In this document: positions 55,332-64,000 of the stretch, piece by piece
Numbering within the stretch: position 1 is the stretch's first letter
Layout of the letters: every line of letters begins with the position of its first letter
Assembly: GCF_029946005.1 (NCBI RefSeq)
Contig: NZ_JAQSDR010000037.1
Coordinates: forward strand, 1-64,000
DNA: 64,000 nt
Origin: Aquabacterium sp.
GTDB taxonomy: Bacteria > Pseudomonadota > Gammaproteobacteria > Burkholderiales > Burkholderiaceae_C
Direction: 5' to 3'
The notes under the pieces: model-generated
Databases searched by the model: none
Seen by the model: the letters and a program-made list of their open reading frames with translations, nothing else
Told to the model about the DNA's origin: nothing
Made by a program: the position numbers and the translations under genes

Positions 55332-55361
55332 CTGACAGCTTTCAGGCCAGGCATGCATATT
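55332..55361 (+). promoter_or_regulatory. candidate sigma70 promoter for nirB
   Basis: CTGACA (55332-55337) and CATATT (55356-55361), 18 bp apart, match consensus in 5/6 and 4/6 positions. It would start RNA near 55368, about 12 nt before the first leader hairpin and about 205 nt before nirB. Not distinctive by itself; supported mainly by its position. Confidence 0.35.
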
Positions 55362-55380
55362 GCGTATTGATGGACGTGCC

Positions 55381-55434
55381 CGCAGGTATCGTCGCCTCAG
55401 CGCACATGCACCGTTCTCCGCTAACGACGGCGGA
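55381..55434 (+). promoter_or_regulatory. tandem hexaloop hairpins (ANTAR-type RNA target) in nirB leader
   Basis: First hairpin: AGGU-[AUCGUC]-GCCU (55384-55397), extended by CGC/GCG across a CA bulge to 55381-55402. Second: UCCGCU-[AACGAC]-GGCGGA (55417-55434). Both loops are six bases with A at 1 and G at 4, closed by U-G pairs, separated by 14 nt. ANTAR proteins recognise paired hexaloop hairpins with A1 and G4. No intrinsic terminator follows, so any control may act otherwise. Confidence 0.5.
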
Positions 55435-55573
55435 AATCAGCTGCATGCCATCGATTCATGTTGGCATCGCACGCTGCTCATTCCCTATTGATTCTGGCAA
55501 TCCGACCGGATTCGAGCGACCTTGCTCGTCCGCTGCGGCTTGCCCATTCTGACCGTCGCAGGAGTACGCAAAC

Positions 55574-58102
55574 ATGAAGATCGTCGTCGTTGGCCATGGC
55601 ATGGTGGGTCACAAATTTCTGGAGAGCCTGGTCGAAGCCGGCGTGCAACACGCCGAAGTGACCGTGCTGTGCGAAGAGCCCCGCGCCGCCTATGACCGGG
55701 TGCACTTGTCCGAGTTTTTCGCAGGCAAGTCCGCCGACGACCTGACGGTGGTTGAGCCTGGCTTCTTTGAGCGCACCGGCTTCACACTGCGCCTGGCCGC
55801 CAAAGCAGCATCCATCGAGCGCCGCAACAACACCGTCACCACGCAGGATGGTGAAGTGCTCTCTTACGACAAGCTGGTGCTGGCCACGGGGTCAAGTCCC
55901 TTCGTGCCCCCAGTGCCGGGCCGTGACCGCCCGAACTGCTTCGTCTACCGCACGATTGAAGACCTGGAGGCCATGACGGCGGCGGGGGCCAAGTCCAAGA
56001 AGGGTGTCGTCATTGGTGGCGGGCTGTTGGGCCTGGAGTGCGCCAAGGCCCTGCGCGACCTGGGCTTGGAAACCCACGTGGTGGAGTTCGCCCCACGCCT
56101 GATGGCCGTGCAAGTGGACGAAGGCGGCGGCCGGGTGCTGCGCGCCAAGATCGAAGAGTTGGGCGTGCACGTTCACACCAACCGCAACACGGTCGAGATC
56201 ACCGACGGCGCCACGGCCCGTCACCGCATGGTGTTCACCGATGGCACCTGGCTGGAAACCGACATGATCGTGTTCTCGGCCGGCATCCGCCCACGCGACG
56301 AACTGGCCCGCCAATGCGTGCTGGCCATCGGCCCCCGCGGTGGCGTGGCCATCGACAGTGAGTGCCGCACCAGCGACCACGACATTTACGCCATTGGTGA
56401 GTGCGCTTCCTGGAACGAGCAGACCTTTGGCCTGGTGGCCCCCGGTTACGAAATGGCCCGCGTGGCCGCCAAGCAAATCGCTGGCGACACGGACGCGGCT
56501 TTCGTGGGCGCCGACATGAGCACCAAGCTCAAGCTGATGGGCGTGGACGTGGCCAGCATTGGCGATGCCCATGGCAAGACCCCGCACAGCCGCACCTACC
56601 AGTACGTCGATGAGGTGAAGCAGATCTACAAGAAGATTGTGGTGAGCCCGGACGGCAAGCAACTGCTGGGCGCCGTGCTGGTGGGCAATGCCGATGAATA
56701 CGGCACGCTGCTGCAGATGGCGCTCAATGGCATCACGCTGCCCGACTCGCCCGAGTTCCTGATCCTGCCTTCCAGCGATGGCCAGGCCAAACCCGGCCTG
56801 GGCGTGGATGCCTTGCCGGACAGCGCCCAGATCTGCTCGTGCAACAACGTCACCAAGGGCCAGATCTGCGCCGCCGTGTGCGATGGCGCCACCGACATCG
56901 GCAAGCTCAAGGCCTGCACCAAGGCCGGTGCCACCTGTGGTGGTTGCGTGCCCCTGGTCACACAGGTCATGAAGTTCGAGATGAAGAAGCAGGGCATGGA
57001 GGTCAACAACCACCTGTGCGAACACTTTGCTTATTCGCGCCAGGAGATGTACCACCTGATCCGTGTCGGCCAGATCAAGACTTTTGACGAACTGCTGGCC
57101 AAGCATGGCAAGGGCCTGGGCTGCGACATCTGCAAGCCCACCGCCGCGTCGATCTTGGCCTCGGTGTGGAACGACTTTGTCCTCAAGAAGGAGCTGGCCA
57201 GCCTGCAGGACAGCAACGACTACTACCTGGGCAACATCCAGAAAGACGGCAGCTACTCGGTCGTGCCCCGCATGCCCGGTGGCGAGGTCACGCCTGACGG
57301 CTTGATCGCCGTGGGCACGGTGGCCAAGAAGTACGGCCTGTACACCAAGGTGACGGGCGGCGCCCGGGTCGACATGTTCGGCGCGCGTGTTGAGCAACTG
57401 CCCTTCATCTGGGAAGAGCTGATTGCCGCCGGCTTCGAGTCCGGCCACGCTTATGGCAAGTCGCTGCGCACCGTCAAGAGCTGCGTGGGTTCCACCTGGT
57501 GTCGCTATGGTGTGGACGACAGCGTCGGCCTGGCCGTGGAGCTGGAGAACCGCTACAAGGGCCTGCGCGCCCCGCACAAGATCAAGTTCGGTGTGTCGGG
57601 CTGCACGCGTGAATGCGCCGAGGCCCAGGGCAAGGACATCGGCATCATCGCCACTGAAAAGGGCTGGAACCTGTACGTGTGCGGCAACGGCGGCATGAAG
57701 CCCCGCCACGCTGAGTTGTTTGCCTCCGACCTGAGCAAGGCCGACTTGATCAAGCTGATCGACCGTGTGCTGATGTTCTACGTGCGCACCGCCGACCGCC
57801 TGCAACGCACCAGCACCTGGCGCGACAACATGGAAGGCGGGCTGGATTACCTCAAGAACGTGATCCTGAACGACAGCCTGGGCCTGAACGCCGAGCTGGA
57901 AGCCCAGATGCAGCACGTGGCCGACACCTATCAGTGCGAGTGGAAGACGGCCGTCACCACCCCAGAGGTGCGCCAGCGCTTCCGCTCTTTCGTCAACAGC
58001 GATAAGAAGGACGAGCACATCGTCTTCGTGGAAGAGCGTGGCCAGATCCGCCCCGCCCGCCCTGAAGAACGCACCACCGCCTCTTCCGATTCATTGGCCT
58101 GA
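55574..58102 (+). CDS. nirB: assimilatory-type nitrite reductase [NAD(P)H], large subunit
   Basis: 842 aa cytoplasmic enzyme reducing nitrite to ammonium. N-terminal FAD/NADH domains (about 1-400, with VGHGMVGHKFLE and GGGLLGLECAKAL), BFD-like [2Fe-2S] domain (C421-S-C423 ... CGGC near 455-458), then the sulfite/nitrite reductase domains with sirohaem/[4Fe-4S] ligands C637-x5-C643 and C677-x3-C681. Full length. Preceded by a strong AGGAG. Partner nirD follows after 23 bp. Confidence 0.97.
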   Translation: MKIVVVGHGMVGHKFLESLVEAGVQHAEVTVLCEEPRAAYDRVHLSEFFAGKSADDLTVVEPGFFERTGFTLRLAAKAASIERRNNTVTTQDGEVLSYDKLVLATGSSPFVPPVPGRDRPNCFVYRTIEDLEAMTAAGAKSKKGVVIGGGLLGLECAKALRDLGLETHVVEFAPRLMAVQVDEGGGRVLRAKIEELGVHVHTNRNTVEITDGATARHRMVFTDGTWLETDMIVFSAGIRPRDELARQCVLAIGPRGGVAIDSECRTSDHDIYAIGECASWNEQTFGLVAPGYEMARVAAKQIAGDTDAAFVGADMSTKLKLMGVDVASIGDAHGKTPHSRTYQYVDEVKQIYKKIVVSPDGKQLLGAVLVGNADEYGTLLQMALNGITLPDSPEFLILPSSDGQAKPGLGVDALPDSAQICSCNNVTKGQICAAVCDGATDIGKLKACTKAGATCGGCVPLVTQVMKFEMKKQGMEVNNHLCEHFAYSRQEMYHLIRVGQIKTFDELLAKHGKGLGCDICKPTAASILASVWNDFVLKKELASLQDSNDYYLGNIQKDGSYSVVPRMPGGEVTPDGLIAVGTVAKKYGLYTKVTGGARVDMFGARVEQLPFIWEELIAAGFESGHAYGKSLRTVKSCVGSTWCRYGVDDSVGLAVELENRYKGLRAPHKIKFGVSGCTRECAEAQGKDIGIIATEKGWNLYVCGNGGMKPRHAELFASDLSKADLIKLIDRVLMFYVRTADRLQRTSTWRDNMEGGLDYLKNVILNDSLGLNAELEAQMQHVADTYQCEWKTAVTTPEVRQRFRSFVNSDKKDEHIVFVEERGQIRPARPEERTTASSDSLA

Positions 58103-58125: not shown

Positions 58126-58461
58126 ATGAACACCGATACCCTGAGCTGGACCGCCGTGTGCGCGGCCGATGACATCTTGCCAAACACGGGCGTGTGCGCC
58201 CTGGTTGACGGCCGGCACGTGGCGGTTTTCCGCGTCGGCGAGAGCCAGTATTTCGCCATCGACAATGTTGATCCCAAAGCCAATGCCAGCGTGCTGTCGC
58301 GCGGCCTGGTGGGCAACCTGGGCGACAAGACCGTGGTGGCCTCGCCGCTGTACAAGCACCACTTTGACTTGAAGACCGGCGAGTGCCTTGAATTGCCAGA
58401 GTTCTCAGTGCGCGCCCATGAAGTGCGTATCGAGGCCGGCCAAGTGATGGTGGTCGGGTAA
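58126..58461 (+). CDS. nirD: nitrite reductase small subunit
   Basis: 111-aa Rieske-fold partner of NirB. As in other NirD proteins the Cys-x-His Rieske ligands are absent (for example SPLYKHHFDLKTGECLELP), so it is structural or regulatory rather than cluster-binding. Preceded by TAGGAGC. Completes the nirBD pair. Confidence 0.95.
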   Translation: MNTDTLSWTAVCAADDILPNTGVCALVDGRHVAVFRVGESQYFAIDNVDPKANASVLSRGLVGNLGDKTVVASPLYKHHFDLKTGECLELPEFSVRAHEVRIEAGQVMVVG

Positions 58462-58693: not shown

Positions 58694-61600
58694 ATGACAC
58701 GAGATTCATCCATGCACGCTTTTCGGCGTGCGTGCCGATGGGCCAGCGGTAGCTTGCTTTGGGTGGTGGCCAGCACCGCCATCGCGCAAACAAACGCCAC
58801 CATTTTTCAGCAGAGTTTTACCGGCGGCCTGGGTGCGTTCACGGCGGCGGGCACGGTGACAACCAGTGGCGCGGGTGCCGTCATGCTGGGGTCGACCCTC
58901 AAGGCCGATGGCGCCATCACCTCCAAATCGCTCAGCACGCAAGGCTACACCGGCATCACCGTGTCGTTCGACCGCGTGACCGCGAACATGGAAAGTGGCA
59001 TGCTGGCCTTCGATGAAGGTGTTTGCGAATACGCCATCAACGGTGGCTCGTTCACACGCCTGGAAGCCACTCGCGTGACCACCCCTGGCCGGGCCAGCTT
59101 CGTGCTGCCAACCACGGTCAACAACAGCAACATCACGCTCCGCTTCCGCGTCAGCGCCGATGTGGCCGATGAAACCTACACGGTCAACAACGTGGTGGTG
59201 ACTGGGGCCCTTGCCGGCACGGGCGGCACGGCCACGCCACCACCACTGGGCCAGTTCAGTACCTTCGAATCCGGCCACGTGCGGCCCATGGTCCTGTCTG
59301 CCGATGGCGCAAGCCTGTACGTGGTCAACACGCCGGATGCGCGGGTGGAGGTCTTCGATGTGACCGGCACGACGCCCGTGCTGCGCCAGTCCATCCCCGT
59401 TGGCCTGGAGCCGGTGGCAGTGGCCCTGGCGCCCAATGGCCGTCTGTGGGTGGTCAACCACCTGTCCGACAGCATCAGCATCGTCGACGTTTCCGTCGCA
59501 CCGGCGCGCGTGGTGAACACATTGCTGGTGGGTGATGAGCCCCGCGACATTGTCTTTGCTGGCCCTGGCAACCGCTGGGCCTTCATCACCGCCGCCCACC
59601 GTGGACAGAACACGAAGTTCGACGCCAAGCTGACGACGGCTGGTCAAGGTCGTGCCGACGTCTGGGTCTTTGACGCGACTTCGCAGGGCACGGCCTTGGG
59701 AGGCACGCCGACCACGGTGCTCAACATGTTCGGCGACACGCTGCGAGGCCTGGCCCGCAGCGCGGACGGCTCACGCGTTTACACCGCCGTGTTCAATTCG
59801 GGCAATCGAACCACGGTGGTTCGCGGCCACAAGCAGCTTGTGCTCGACAAGGGCGGTCCCACTGCGGCCGCCGACGGTACCGCGGCACCTGCCACCAGCC
59901 TGATCGTGCAGAAGAATGCCAATGGCGACTGGGTTGACGCTGGAGATCCCAAGAGCGGCGCGGCCCCCAAGGCCTGGAATCAGAACGTCAAGCTGGACCT
60001 GCCGGACTACGACGTCTTCACGATCGACACCACCACGGCCACCCCCATGGTGATCAACCGCCTGTCCGGCGTGGGCACCACCTTGTTCAACCTGGCGGTG
60101 AACCCGGCCAACGGCAAGGTCTACGTCAGCAATCAGGAGGCGCGCAACGTGGTGCGCTTTGAAGGTCCGGGCAAGAACAGTTCTACCGTGAACGGTAACT
60201 TTGTGCAGAGCCGCATCACGGTGATCGACGGCGCCTCCGTGCTGCCGCGGCACCTGAACAAGCACATCACCAGCTACGGCAAGCCGCTGGGCACCGCCGC
60301 CGAGAACGCCGCGGCCGTGTCAATGCCCCTTGAAATGGCGGTCACGCCTGATGGCGGCATGCTGTACCTGGTGTCCATGGGCACCAACAAGCTGGCCCGC
60401 TATGCCACATCTCAACTGGAGGCCGACAGCTTCACGCCTTCTGCGGCCCAACAGCTGGTCATGAGTGGTGGGTTGCCCACCGGTGTGGTGCTGGACGCTC
60501 CCCGGGGTCGCGCCTTTGTCACCACCCGTCAGGACAATGGCGTGTCGGTGGTGAACACGTCGATGTTCCGTGAAGTGGCCCATGTGACCATGGCCAACCC
60601 CGAGTCGGCCGATGTGGTCAAGGGTCGCCGCTTCATGTACGACGCGGCCTACACCTCCAGCCGGGGCGATTCGGCGTGCGCGTCGTGCCACATCTTTGGC
60701 GACATGGACCAGTTGGCGTGGGATCTGGGCAACCCGGATGACGTGCCGGCCAAGAACAACAACGCCTACAACCGTTTCGTGTTTTCGTTCCTGCGCACCA
60801 CCAAGAGTTTTCACCCCATGAAGGGACCGATGACGACGCAGAGCTTCCGCGGCATGGCCGGCAACGGTCCGCTGCACTGGCGTGGCGACCGCCAGGGTGT
60901 TTCCACCGGGGCGACTCTGGAGGAGCGGTCGTTCAAGGATTTCAGTGTGGCCTTCCCTGGCTTGTTGGGTCGTGAGCAGGCCTTGAATGACGAGGAGATG
61001 ACCTCCTTCGCGCGTTATGCGCTCAAGCTGGTGTACCCCCCCAGCCCGGTGGCCAACCTGGATACCAGCCTGACGGCCATTCAGAAGGCAGGCCAGGAGT
61101 TCTACATGAACAAGACCGCCGACACCTTGACCACCTGCAATGGCTGTCACGCGCTGGACCCCAGCAAGGGCCAGTACGGCACCGATGGCACCATGGCCTT
61201 CGAGGGTTTCGCGATTGCCGAGAACTTCAAGATCCCGCAGCTGCGCAACATGTACCAGAAGGTCGGCATGTTCGCGGAGAACGAGCCTGAGAAGTCGGCG
61301 ACCGGCGCTCAGATCAAGGGCTTCGGCTACGCCTTCGACGGCGCGCTGGGCACGGTCGATCAGTTCCTGTCCGCCGCCGTGTTCGTCTCGGTGAACGCGA
61401 CCGAGCGCAAGCAGCTGGAAGAGTTCGTGCTGGCGTTCCCGTCCGACCTGCAGCCGGTGGTCGGTCAGCAAGTGACCGTGACACCAACCAACGGATCGCA
61501 AAGTGACGTCAGTGCTCGCCTGAACCTGCTGGTGCAGCGCGCCATGGTCACCTCGCCACGCCCCGAGTGCGAGTTGGTTGCCAAGGGCGTGCTGGGTGGG

Positions 61601-61801
61601 GTCTCTCGTGGGTGGGTGCTGTCCCGCGCCTCTGGCACCTTTGTGCCGGACCGCCGTGGCGAAAGCGGTGTGAACCTCTCCACACTGGTGAGCACGGCCC
61701 GCACCGCCAGCACGCCGCTGACCTTCACATGCGCGCCTCCCGGCAACGGCACGCGCCTGGGCATTGACCGCAATGCCGACGGACGCTTTGACCGCGATTG
61801 A
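58694..61801 (+). CDS. secreted beta-propeller/di-haem cytochrome c fusion protein
   Basis: 1035 aa. Signal peptide (ends AIAQ, about 33), an N-terminal beta-sandwich (about 34-175), a YVTN/YncE-like beta-propeller (about 185-635; for example LSADGASLYVVNTPDARVEV) and a C-terminal cytochrome region with two haem sites, C662-ASCH666 and C815-NGCH819, spaced as in di-haem peroxidase/MauG-like proteins. The tail ends in an acidic DRNADGRFDRD, a calcium-type loop. It probably transfers electrons in the periplasm; substrate unknown. Sits between nirBD and the NasR-like gene; GAGGAG precedes the ATG. Confidence 0.8.
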   Translation: MTRDSSMHAFRRACRWASGSLLWVVASTAIAQTNATIFQQSFTGGLGAFTAAGTVTTSGAGAVMLGSTLKADGAITSKSLSTQGYTGITVSFDRVTANMESGMLAFDEGVCEYAINGGSFTRLEATRVTTPGRASFVLPTTVNNSNITLRFRVSADVADETYTVNNVVVTGALAGTGGTATPPPLGQFSTFESGHVRPMVLSADGASLYVVNTPDARVEVFDVTGTTPVLRQSIPVGLEPVAVALAPNGRLWVVNHLSDSISIVDVSVAPARVVNTLLVGDEPRDIVFAGPGNRWAFITAAHRGQNTKFDAKLTTAGQGRADVWVFDATSQGTALGGTPTTVLNMFGDTLRGLARSADGSRVYTAVFNSGNRTTVVRGHKQLVLDKGGPTAAADGTAAPATSLIVQKNANGDWVDAGDPKSGAAPKAWNQNVKLDLPDYDVFTIDTTTATPMVINRLSGVGTTLFNLAVNPANGKVYVSNQEARNVVRFEGPGKNSSTVNGNFVQSRITVIDGASVLPRHLNKHITSYGKPLGTAAENAAAVSMPLEMAVTPDGGMLYLVSMGTNKLARYATSQLEADSFTPSAAQQLVMSGGLPTGVVLDAPRGRAFVTTRQDNGVSVVNTSMFREVAHVTMANPESADVVKGRRFMYDAAYTSSRGDSACASCHIFGDMDQLAWDLGNPDDVPAKNNNAYNRFVFSFLRTTKSFHPMKGPMTTQSFRGMAGNGPLHWRGDRQGVSTGATLEERSFKDFSVAFPGLLGREQALNDEEMTSFARYALKLVYPPSPVANLDTSLTAIQKAGQEFYMNKTADTLTTCNGCHALDPSKGQYGTDGTMAFEGFAIAENFKIPQLRNMYQKVGMFAENEPEKSATGAQIKGFGYAFDGALGTVDQFLSAAVFVSVNATERKQLEEFVLAFPSDLQPVVGQQVTVTPTNGSQSDVSARLNLLVQRAMVTSPRPECELVAKGVLGGVSRGWVLSRASGTFVPDRRGESGVNLSTLVSTARTASTPLTFTCAPPGNGTRLGIDRNADGRFDRD

Positions 61802-61823: not shown

Positions 61824-61871
61824 GGACAATCGGCTGACTTCCCAGTTAGCCAGATTGTCCCTTTCATTTTT
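61824..61871 (+). terminator. intrinsic terminator abutting the NasR-like start codon
   Basis: GGACAATC (61824-61831) pairs with GATTGTCC (61853-61860), continued by GGCTGAC/GTTAGCC around a six-base loop, with one bulged A. CTTTCATTTTT follows. The T-run ends at base 61871, directly before the ATG of the next gene. It terminates the cytochrome transcript, but also leaves no room for a Shine-Dalgarno sequence for the next gene. Confidence 0.75.
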
Positions 61872-63167
61872 ATGCCCCTCTCAGTATCCCAGCTCGTCCT
61901 GCGCGCCAAACAACTGGAAATCGACGCCGTGCGGCACCTCGCCGGCCGCGTCGAGTTCGCGGACGTCATCGGCCAGTTGATCCACGCCCTGCAGCGCGAG
62001 CGAGGCGCCACCAGCATTTACCTGGCCTCCAGCGGTCAGCGCTTTCTGGCCGAGCGCCAGTCGGCCCTTGAAGAGGCCCTCCCCATTGAGGCAGCATTGC
62101 GGGCGCTGTTCGCCGAGCAATTGGAGCCCGCGCAAGGCGCCACGGCCAGCATGCTGTCGCTGATGGCCTGGGTGCTGCTCGACCTGGACACCCTGGCCGA
62201 TTTTCGGGTTCAGATCGACCAACGCACGCCGACCGCCCATGAGTCGGTGGCGGCCTTCAGCCGCTTGATCGCCGGCCTGGTCGAGCTGATCTTCCATGTG
62301 GCCGATGCGGCCCTGCACCCGGGCATTTCGCGCCTGCTGGTGGCCCTGGTCCACCTGGTGCAGGGCAAGGAGGCTGCGGGCCAGGAGCGTGCCGTGGGCG
62401 CGCAACTTTTCGCCTCGGGAGCTAGCGTCGACGCGGAACAGCAGCGCATCATTCACCTGATCGATGCCCAGGAGCGCAGCCTGCGCGTGTTCGAGGAGTT
62501 TGCCGAGCCCGCCCTGCGTGAGCGCTGGCAGCAGCATCAACTGACCCCCAATGTGGCGTTGCTGGAGCGCTTGCGCCGCACCTTGTGCACGGCCCGGCCC
62601 GGCGCGGCCCTGGACACGGGCCTGAGCGACAGCTGGTTCAAAGTGTCCAGCGAGCGCATCACCGAGATGTGGCAGGTGCAGGTCGAGCTGGTGCAGTGCT
62701 TGCGCCAGGTCTGCGAGGCGCAGCGCCACGCCACGCAGCAAGACCTGCAGGATTCGGAAGGCCTGCTTCAGCAGCTGCGCGACAACCCGCCGCCCCACAC
62801 CCACGCGGTGGGCCGCTTCTTCAACAACAACGCTGCCGAGCAGCCCGAGGCAGCTCCGGTCCTGCCCGCCATGTCGGATGGCCCCACCAGTGCCCGTGCG
62901 AACTCTCCCGAGCTGGTCGACCTGTTGAAGACACAGTCTGCGCGGCTCGCGAGCATGGAGCTCGAGTTGGACACGGCGCGCAGAACCCTGCACGAGCGCA
63001 AGGTGATCGAGCGGGCCAAGGGTGCCTTGATGTCCCGCCTGGGGATCACGGAGGAGGCGGCCTTCCGTGCCTTGCAAAAGGCGTCCATGGACCACAACCG
63101 CAAGCTGCTGGACGTGGCCGAAGCCACGCTGACCTTGCCCGACCTGGCCTTTGCCGCCAAGCCCTGA
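61872..63167 (+). CDS. NIT-ANTAR nitrate/nitrite-sensing transcription antiterminator (NasR-like)
   Basis: 431 aa. N-terminal all-helical NIT domain (about 30-300; IHALQRERGATSIYLASSG is the recognisable start of this nitrate/nitrite sensor) and C-terminal ANTAR domain (about 355-420; ERAKGALMSRLGITEEAAFRALQKASMDHNRKL) that binds RNA. In Klebsiella NasR, nitrate or nitrite binding allows the ANTAR dimer to prevent a leader terminator from forming. Cytoplasmic. The likely target is the attenuator directly downstream, and perhaps the nirB leader. Its own start lacks a ribosome-binding site. Confidence 0.9.
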   Translation: MPLSVSQLVLRAKQLEIDAVRHLAGRVEFADVIGQLIHALQRERGATSIYLASSGQRFLAERQSALEEALPIEAALRALFAEQLEPAQGATASMLSLMAWVLLDLDTLADFRVQIDQRTPTAHESVAAFSRLIAGLVELIFHVADAALHPGISRLLVALVHLVQGKEAAGQERAVGAQLFASGASVDAEQQRIIHLIDAQERSLRVFEEFAEPALRERWQQHQLTPNVALLERLRRTLCTARPGAALDTGLSDSWFKVSSERITEMWQVQVELVQCLRQVCEAQRHATQQDLQDSEGLLQQLRDNPPPHTHAVGRFFNNNAAEQPEAAPVLPAMSDGPTSARANSPELVDLLKTQSARLASMELELDTARRTLHERKVIERAKGALMSRLGITEEAAFRALQKASMDHNRKLLDVAEATLTLPDLAFAAKP

Positions 63168-63260
63168 ATGCACCACAAGAGAGCCTGACGCACCAGATCG
63201 GGCTGCGCGGCGTGCCTAAACAGCGCAAATTTCGGGCATGAATAATGCATGTTTTCAAGG

Positions 63261-63312
63261 GTCAAGCTAATGGCGGTTTGACACATGAACACGTGGATGA
63301 CGGCGTCCCCGT
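63261..63312 (+). promoter_or_regulatory. ANTAR-type tandem hairpins in the nitrite-channel leader
   Basis: P1: GUCAAGCU-[AAUGGC]-GGUUUGAC (63261-63282), an 8-bp stem with a six-base loop, A at 1 and G at 4. P2: ACGUGGAU-[GACGGC]-GUCCCCGU (63291-63312), with one mismatch, loop G at 4 but G instead of A at 1. Eight nt separate them. The 3' arm of P2 (63305-63312) is also part of the 5' arm of the following terminator, so the two folds exclude each other. Confidence 0.65.
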
Positions 63313-63363
63313 TCTGGCTCAGCTCAGGCTGCAGTCCAGACGGGGACGCCGTTTTTTGTTTTT
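63299..63363 (+). terminator. strong intrinsic terminator (attenuator) before nitrite channel gene
   Basis: ACGGCGTCCCCGT (63300-63312) pairs with ACGGGGACGCCGT (63340-63352); the stem continues inward with CTGG/CCAG and caps with CAGC-TCAG-GCTG. TTTTTTGTTTTT follows (63352-63363). It ends 25 bp before the channel gene ATG, so it must be bypassed for expression. Confidence 0.9.
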
Positions 63364-63388: not shown

Positions 63389-64000
63389 ATGGCTTACCTC
63401 GCTCCCGCCGAGTTCGTGACCAAGATGGTTGACGCCGGTGAATCCAAACTCCTGATGTCCACCCGAGACACCCTCATCCGCTCATTCATGGCCGGGGCCA
63501 TCCTGGCACTGGGCGCGGCCTTCGCGGTCACCATCACTGTGAACACTGGCAACGCCCTGCTGGGCGCACTGCTGTTCCCGGTCGGTTTCATCATGCTGTA
63601 CCTGCTGGGCTTTGACCTGCTGACCGGCGTGTTCACCCTGGCCCCCTTGGCCGTGTTTGACAAGCGTCCTGGCGCCACCTGGGGTGGCGTCATGCGCAAC
63701 TGGAGCCTCGTGTTCGTGGGCAACTTTGGCGGCGCCTTCATGGTGGCCGTGTTCATGGCCATCATCTTCACCTTCGGTTTCAGCGAGGCCCCCAATGCGG
63801 TCGGCCAGAAGATTGGTCACATTGGTGAGGGCCGCACGGTGGGCTACGCCGCGCACGGCGCTGCCGGCATGCTGACCCTGTTCATCCGTGGCGTGATGTG
63901 CAACTGGATGGTCTCCACTGGCGTGGTCGCGGCCATGATGTCCACCACGGTGTCGGGCAAGGCCATTGGCATGTGGATGCCGATTGCCTTGTTCTTCTAC
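63389..64000 (+). CDS. formate/nitrite transporter family channel, N-terminal part (cut by window edge)
   Basis: The first 204 residues are visible. Successive membrane helices (about 32-55, 62-85, 105-130, 155-180, 190-204) and text such as GVMCNWMVSTGVVAAMMS and KAIGMWMPIALFF fit the FNT fold of FocA/NirC pentameric channels. Given nirBD and a nitrate/nitrite-sensing regulator, nitrite uptake (NirC/NitA-like) is the likeliest role. Start ATG follows AAAGGAAG. The leader carries the ANTAR hairpins and attenuator. C-terminus lies outside the window. Confidence 0.9.
   Translation, partial: MAYLAPAEFVTKMVDAGESKLLMSTRDTLIRSFMAGAILALGAAFAVTITVNTGNALLGALLFPVGFIMLYLLGFDLLTGVFTLAPLAVFDKRPGATWGGVMRNWSLVFVGNFGGAFMVAVFMAIIFTFGFSEAPNAVGQKIGHIGEGRTVGYAAHGAAGMLTLFIRGVMCNWMVSTGVVAAMMSTTVSGKAIGMWMPIALFFY

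Follow-up and report, generated by a model that had tools for sequence, protein, structure and literature searches.

The question raised by this locus is whether the DNA between a putative nitrate/nitrite sensor gene and a channel gene is an RNA switch and, if so, which protein operates it. The window (the whole 64,000-nucleotide stretch of DNA analysed) lies in contig C37 of a 4.53 Mb Aquabacterium genome (G000:C37), in which the gene order is nirB, nirD, a beta-propeller-like gene, the NIT-ANTAR gene, the leader, the FNT gene and a PP2C/protein-kinase fusion gene. The features of the leader and of its flanking genes are as follows.

61872-63167, + strand, NIT-ANTAR regulator gene (NasR-like, 431 aa)
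63234-63249, + strand, sigma-54-like -24/-12 element GGGCATGAATAATGCA (base-shuffle p 0.032; 9/12 consensus positions)
63261-63282, + strand, P1 hexaloop hairpin GTCAAGCT[AATGGC]GGTTTGAC with eight pairs, loop 63269-63274, A1 and G4; covarying
63295-63308, + strand, P2 hexaloop hairpin (antiterminator), core GGAT[GACGGC]GTCC, loop 63299-63304, G1 and G4; near-invariant in 24 leaders
63300-63363, + strand, intrinsic terminator, arms 63300-63312 and 63340-63352, T-rich tail to 63363; covarying across 24 leaders
63389-64000 in the window (full gene 63389-64201, full frame L005:3390-4202), + strand, FNT-family channel gene, 270 aa
55574-58461, + strand, nirB (55574-58102) and nirD (58126-58461), assimilatory nitrite reductase (TIGR02374 and TIGR02378 over cut-off), second predicted target

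The regulator is NasR-like in having NIT and ANTAR domains within one protein, both over cut-off (PF08376, 159 bits, E 2.5e-46; PF03861, 74.5 bits, E 5.6e-21). Its best solved-structure match is Klebsiella oxytoca NasR (PDB 4akk, E 6e-41), and its closest named relatives are Aquabacterium records (93-94% identity) and a Leptothrix MAG (92%). The original prediction, which put the element 25 bp before an FNT channel gene with a NIT-ANTAR gene upstream, is borne out by these matches together with PF01226 for the channel, the ATG of which (63389) lies 25 nt past the end of the terminator tail (63363). The accompanying description of a nitrite channel holds for the FNT family; nitrite specificity is less certain: among solved structures LCIA matches best, followed by FocA, and NirC matches far more weakly. 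None of the NCBIfam models passes its cut-off against the channel protein.

Other features of the locus were also observed. The PP2C/Ser-Thr kinase fusion gene (L005:4199-5938; 64198-65937 in window numbering) overlaps the end of the FNT gene and follows it in 25 of 28 loci having an FNT match, the other three loci ending within the FNT gene or at most 280 nt from it; hence, the kinase gene should share the attenuator. Between nirD and the NIT-ANTAR gene lies the gene for a 1035-residue beta-propeller-like protein (58694-61801), a homologue of which was present, among loci L017-L074, in L020 only besides the window's own locus. A strong terminator-like hairpin (61824-61871, -23.9 kcal/mol) has a T-rich tail that reaches the NIT-ANTAR ATG, and a GGACAAT box about 40-50 nt 5' of that ATG recurs in several relatives. 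Does the NIT-ANTAR gene have a nearly leaderless start?

Coordinates and folding confirmed that the leader contains two hexaloop hairpins followed by a strong terminator that overlaps P2. The terminator 5' arm (63300-63312) is made up of the P2 loop plus the P2 3' arm, and as the terminator borrows these segments, P2 and the terminator are mutually exclusive. The minimum free energy of the stretch to the T-tail is -56.5 kcal/mol with the terminator versus -37.7 kcal/mol when P1 and P2 are forced, and in the same energy model the stretch cut after P2 folds as P1 plus P2, the latter being extendable with one mismatch to 63291-63312. From the last pair of P1 to the P2 core the linker is 12 nt, within the range of about 5-12 nt taken for the class. 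Both hairpins have six-base loops with G4 (a selection criterion for the orthologues), although in the energy-model folds the P2 G1 pairs with C6 to leave a four-base loop, and hence it is by homology that P2 is read as a hexaloop. NasR SELEX is reported to favor A1 and a terminal C:G pair (PMC7496416). The window has A1 in P1 and G1 in P2 (GACGGC, as originally predicted), and both hairpins are closed by U-G, which counts against a NasR-type reading. At gathering cut-offs an Rfam scan of the window gave one tRNA only and no leader family; at low threshold narK RNA (RF03032, gathering cut-off 43.2 bits) appeared at 17.1 bits (63235-63309) among chance hits of miRNA and sRNA type. We consider it highly probable that the 63261-63363 leader is a NasR-type (NIT-ANTAR) transcription attenuator operated by the product of the adjoining upstream NIT-ANTAR gene; the ligand, RNA binding and antitermination are those we infer from NasR and EutV.

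Would such a structure arise by chance? When P1, P2 and an overlapping terminator were required together under strict criteria, the joint detector was positive for the window and for none of 960 dinucleotide shuffles, 20 having been made from each of 48 FNT upstream regions. As a survey tool the detector proved too strict (7/27 NIT-ANTAR genomes and 1/21 others), missing clear elements such as those of G085 and G136 and taking a linker hairpin for P1 in G167, and it was replaced by covariance models. The leader set came from 29 FNT upstream regions which, minus four duplicates, left 25; 22 of these gave P1 and P2 by rule and two further P1s were added by eye, giving 24 leaders and leaving L027 without any. 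Thus, 24 of the 25 carry both hairpins, and L027 has another gene order. As the rule included the P1 loop G4, a RANGGY P2 loop and the P2 GGAT/GTCC stem (relaxed for L037), the constancy of these is not evidence; P1 pairs 5-8, P1 loop A2 and C6 and terminator covariation are outside the rule and count as evidence. In P1, 90.6% of the cells are paired, five of the eight pairs changed on both sides, and covariation was 0.490 versus 0.244 for shuffled alignments (0/500) and at most 0.183 when slid; loop A2 and C6 are kept in 24/24 leaders. The terminator 3' arm, picked as the best match, pairs with the P2 loop/3' arm in 96.3% of cells, with covariation of 0.214 versus 0.149 (0/500) and at most 0.075 when slid. 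Hence, P1 and the terminator covary across the 24 leaders; the P2 core is too near to invariant to have covariation power and so gains no covariation support.

For a held-out test, a covariance model was trained on 20 leaders, excluding that of the window and the three closest to it, and was run against the whole 4.5 Mb genome. The window scored 50 bits (E 8.3e-9) with the runner-up at 21.7 bits and was the sole strong match, 150 of 4665 first-look candidates having been scored. The models found no second FNT-type element in the genome, and as model R1 misses the genome's own nirB leader too, divergent leaders could escape. Weaker own-genome matches were inspected: the four to models R1/R2 (L124-L127) all overlap open frames and have no leader layout, and the seven to narK RNA (L010-L016) gave no clear leader.

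To which regulator does the leader belong? The survey comprised 299 genomes of the family, this one included, with a NIT-ANTAR match (E 1e-40) in 70 and an FNT match (E 1e-60) in 48. The R1 element (34 bits or more) was present in the FNT leader of 15/15 genomes having the NIT-ANTAR gene 197-874 nt upstream, of 2/12 having it elsewhere (G097, at 4.8 kb, is counted here) and of 0/21 lacking a NIT-ANTAR match. Fourteen of the 15 close-upstream genomes were in model training; G213 and the trans cases G164 and G047 were outside it. Two observations count against the association: the element is absent from the FNT leader in 10 of the 12 genomes with NIT-ANTAR elsewhere, and from L027 (gene order nirD-FNT-kinase-ANTAR). 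R1 and R2, trained on FNT leaders only, also matched the NIT-ANTAR-to-nrtA interval in 10/10 loci (20-42 bits, E 0.004 or better), none of them in training and two having an nrtA-like gene at 34% identity. The FNT- and nrtA-adjacent elements indicate that these NIT-ANTAR regulators usually have a target beside them, in many cases an uptake gene. The 15/15 versus 0/21 association supports the proposed NIT-ANTAR antitermination of the FNT leader. The adjacency of sensor and target was said to be unlike the classical NasR case, but it has a precedent in Paracoccus, in which the nasTS genes are reported to adjoin nasA on its upstream side (PMC5424462); nor is an uptake target new, as ANTAR elements before nitrate/nitrite transporters appear in a 2012 list (PMC3369931).

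The genome has four ANTAR matches (NIT-ANTAR and three other proteins), and the leader could be an ANTAR attenuator read mainly by the NasT-like protein, or by another of the four, with NIT-ANTAR a mere neighbor. The NasT-like gene does have its own leader before nrtA, composed of a sigma-54-like element, P1, P2 and a terminator, and ANTAR domains in general are reported to bind similar hairpins (PMC7496416). We regard this as quite improbable given that none of the 21 FNT leaders whose genomes lack a NIT-ANTAR match carries the element, even though other ANTAR genes are present in 18 of those genomes, and that the loops are closed by U-G in the FNT and nirB leaders of the window but by C-G in the genome's own nrtA leader. 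Still less credible is that the hairpins are only a terminator or RNA-stability element with hexaloops as by-products: the terminator is strong and conserved and accounts for part of the P2 loop conservation, but P1 lies outside the terminator, covaries and keeps its loop A2 and C6 throughout, and paired hexaloops also precede nirB and nrtA. Another ANTAR architecture, ANTAR then a PilJ-type domain, is encoded in the same genome (L007:9263-10690, - strand; G000:C12) near a 417-residue NirB-like (Pyr_redox_2) gene.

The nature of the promoter leaves room for a further alternative. The original prediction overlooked both the sigma-54-like element and a second likely target, nirB. A GG-N10-GC element with flanking consensus lies 12-17 nt 5' of P1 in 24/24 leaders, scoring 8-11 of the 12 presumed consensus positions with base-shuffle p <=0.05 in 22/24 (L044 0.052, L046 0.106), and the genome has two Sigma54_DBD genes. 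A similar element precedes P1 of nirB (23/23 leaders) and of 16 narK RNA loci, there as part of the Rfam model. Transcription would be expected to start about 12 nt past the -12 GC, at the foot of P1, and motif and position point to sigma-54/NtrC control. Could the promoter instead be of the sigma-70 type (TAAACA-N18-AATAAT, 63217-63246), with no nitrogen-limitation gate? This match, assessed in the window sequence only, is the single one in a 3.5 kb stretch (9/12; 0.3 expected by chance), and the sigma-54 score of the window is a moderate 9/12. The recurrence of the GG-N10-GC element at a nearly fixed distance in all 24 leaders, and before nirB and the narK RNA loci, makes a sigma-70 promoter unlikely. 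Ntr and NasR are reported to act jointly in Klebsiella (PMC5424462), and for NalA, the leader of nirBD in Pseudomonas, an NtrC/sigma-54 promoter is described (PMC12830290). Given the sigma-54-like element and these precedents, the leader probably computes nitrogen limitation AND nitrate/nitrite.

In the mechanism we propose for the NIT-ANTAR attenuator, sigma-54 RNA polymerase, very probably NtrC-activated under nitrogen limitation, would start at the foot of P1. As long as neither nitrate nor nitrite is present, the terminator would form and transcription would end short of the channel gene. Once either anion is bound by the NIT domain, an ANTAR-domain dimer would hold the P1 and P2 hexaloops, and P2, by removing the terminator 5' arm, would let polymerase read into the FNT gene and the overlapping PP2C/kinase gene.

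The leader of nirB has a comparable arrangement.

55349-55364, + strand, sigma-54-like element before nirB, AGGCATGCATATTGCG (pattern reading of nirB leaders)
55384-55397, + strand, nirB-leader P1 core AGGT[ATCGTC]GCCT (pattern reading of nirB leaders)
55417-55434, + strand, nirB-leader P2 TCCGCT[AACGAC]GGCGGA (core in 23/23 nirB leaders examined)
55553-55564, + strand, CCGTCGCAGGAG 5' of the nirB start, complementary to nirB P2; candidate ribosome-site lock (suggestive)

The nirB leaders of some relatives score about 10-15 bits with the models and were read by pattern instead. All 23 (+ strand start, window included; 19 distinct P1+P2 pairs) have the sigma-54-like element, a variable hexaloop hairpin and CCGCT[RACGAC]GGCGG, and the P1 loop starts 24-27 nt past the -12 GC in 20/23 free picks. 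There is no convincing P2-overlapping terminator in the window's nirB leader (a lenient scan gave a weak one, 7 pairs with 5 T in 8); the same scan, run without a shuffle control, found terminator-like stems touching P2 in 14/23, the best being those of L022 (12 pairs) and L024 (11 pairs). In 13/23 the nirB ribosome site reads CCGTCGCAGGAG and is complementary to P2 (55413-55434 in the window), which suggests that P2 formation might free the nirB start and place translation under ANTAR control. Ramesh et al. proposed such translational control for some elements (PMC3369931). The energy of the ribosome-site/P2 duplex compared with 87 control ribosome sites gave p <=0.08 in 19/23 and <=0.05 in 16/23, and when GGAG was kept and the rest shuffled just 3/23 had p <=0.05 (window 0.033). 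Four Curvibacter nirB leaders gave no signal of ribosome-site complementarity to P2. We consider nirBD a probable second target of NIT-ANTAR, giving a two-leader regulon.

A third leader of this genome was matched by RF03032 at 36.9 bits, below the cut-off.

L006:8763-8870 (G000:C32:168762-168869), - strand, narK RNA-like, probable ANTAR leader between the NasT-like gene and nrtA (RF03032 match)

The RF03032 consensus comprises a sigma-54-like element, GGcagCC[AACGGC]GGcugCC and CGAC[AAAGAC]GUCG, the second hairpin being unannotated as paired. At E 1e-4 the family matched 16/250 Burkholderiales genomes, three over the cut-off, and 16/16 matches have two hexaloops with a purine at position 1 and G4 (L137 P2 and L143 read by eye). 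An ANTAR homologue lies within 1.5 kb in 12/16 (on the other strand in L137) and none does so in L135, L142, L143 and L149; nrtA is downstream in 13/16, and model R1 finds 14/16 at the same place, missing L138 and L009. These data are evidence that Rfam narK RNA is an ANTAR leader. The motif was reportedly described by Weinberg et al. in 2017; its name was absent from the literature searched, the original description being outside that search. In addition, RF00625 (Pseudomonas sRNA P11, cut-off 70) matches a NIT-ANTAR/nrtA leader (L065:2921-3060) at 29.4 bits and found no match in the Aquabacterium genome. In addition to a GGCAC..CTGC element, its consensus has a hexaloop with A1 and G4 as well as GGAC[AAAGGC]GUCC, the latter overlapping a terminator; P11 is thus a possible ANTAR leader and might be NalA.

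What, then, distinguishes the RNAs read by different ANTAR proteins? The original suggestion that the P2 G1 may alter specificity was right as to the base, but G1 is common (loop position 1 in the 24 leaders: P1 A19 G4 C1; P2 A12 G12) and in the EutV-RNA structure, as reported, the position 1 base makes no specific contact (PMC8934654). The closing pair is more telling. It is U-G in 22/24 P1 and 23/24 P2 hairpins of the FNT leaders, window included, and in 17/23 P1 and 23/23 P2 hairpins of the nirB leaders; it is C-G in both hairpins of the 10 nrtA leaders of NIT-ANTAR loci (P1 of L066 and L071 read by eye) and of the genome's own nrtA leader. The trans cases G164 and G047, in which NIT-ANTAR adjoins nrtA, have mixed FNT leaders (P1 C-G, P2 U-G). 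An altered P1 closing pair is reported to have abolished EutV induction (PMC3369931).

The position of EutV Arg168 (NasR Arg366) is Gln in 35/35 FNT/nirB-linked ANTAR rows, the window included (L060 and L035 are the same contig), and Arg in 9/9 nrtA-linked rows read (L067 left out) and in the genome's own NasT-like protein. Rv1626 also has Gln there, and the co-occurrence of Gln with U-G may reflect one evolutionary event. The regulator keeps the equivalents of EutV Arg142, Lys143, Lys149, Glu160 and Met172 (numbering offset deduced), and EutV Lys147, Tyr164, Arg168, Asn173 and Arg175 are replaced by Arg, Phe, Gln, Asp and Asn. As read by eye, Ala and Gln stand opposite NasR E191 and R193, two residues of the nitrate-dependent lock, and thus the allosteric wiring may differ. 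It is a tentative and rather doubtful proposition that two nitrate-responsive ANTAR regulators per cell are kept apart by the hexaloop closing pair, Gln-type NIT-ANTAR (FNT/nirB-linked) reading U-G and Arg-type NasT-like and nrtA-linked NIT-ANTAR reading C-G, with one regulator perhaps having two outputs, antitermination at the channel gene and ribosome-site release at nirB.

In 10 leaders, the window's among them, P1 and P2 are separated by a linker of 5-13 nt; in the other 14 the linker measures 38-57 nt. Each of these 14 long linkers folds better than the mean of its shuffles (z from -0.92 to -3.30, averaging -2.13), and 1-18 nt lie beyond the outermost pairs. As EutV is intolerant of long linkers, a role of the inserted hairpin may be to hold P1 near P2.

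The locus offers a compact, complete and testable nitrate/nitrite circuit in Burkholderiales, composed of sensor, RNA switch, uptake channel and reductase. Its natural variation falls on the very bases that are believed to determine which RNAs ANTAR domains recognize; with closing pair and contact residue changing together, swaps would allow a test of how parallel ANTAR pathways avoid cross-talk, and a function is suggested for the Rfam motif narK RNA. The lineage with the unusual hairpins may drive other nitrogen genes likewise.

The closest known system is the K. oxytoca NasR/nasF leader, which shares the one-component NIT-ANTAR regulator and the P1/P2 hexaloops with P2 overlapping an intrinsic terminator, and for which Ntr-dependent, nitrate/nitrite-induced expression is reported (PMC5424462, PMC3369936, PMC7496416). 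It differs in that the target here is the FNT channel with the PP2C/kinase, probably nirBD too, the hairpins have U-G closing pairs and a P2 loop G1, and the positions of NasR Trp362 and Arg366 are Phe and Gln. A sigma-54/NtrC-started leader RNA freed by an ANTAR antiterminator, predicted here, is reported for Pseudomonas NasT/NalA and nirBD (PMC12830290), but there the sensor is the two-protein NasS-NasT rather than one NIT-ANTAR protein, and no terminator overlapping P2 is convincing in the window's nirB leader. The Enterococcus faecalis EutV/eut leaders share the dual hexaloop, the exclusivity of P2 and terminator and several RNA-contact residues; unlike the regulator here, EutV has a two-component input, and it is reported to tolerate little linker change (3 or 14 nt in vivo and +20 nt in vitro fail), whereas 14/24 relatives of the window leader have long, folded linkers. 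RF03032 narK RNA has the same layout as the window, with a GGCAC-N5-TTGC-like element and, in the family consensus, hexaloops AACGGC and AAAGAC, but its loci are C-G closed, mostly have NasT-like regulators and target nrtA. Hence, the mechanism, the adjacency of regulator and target and transporter targets are already known; the new part is the target set and the RNA variant, with its U-G closing pairs, free loop position 1, Gln for Arg at an RNA-contact position and a hairpin in the long linkers.
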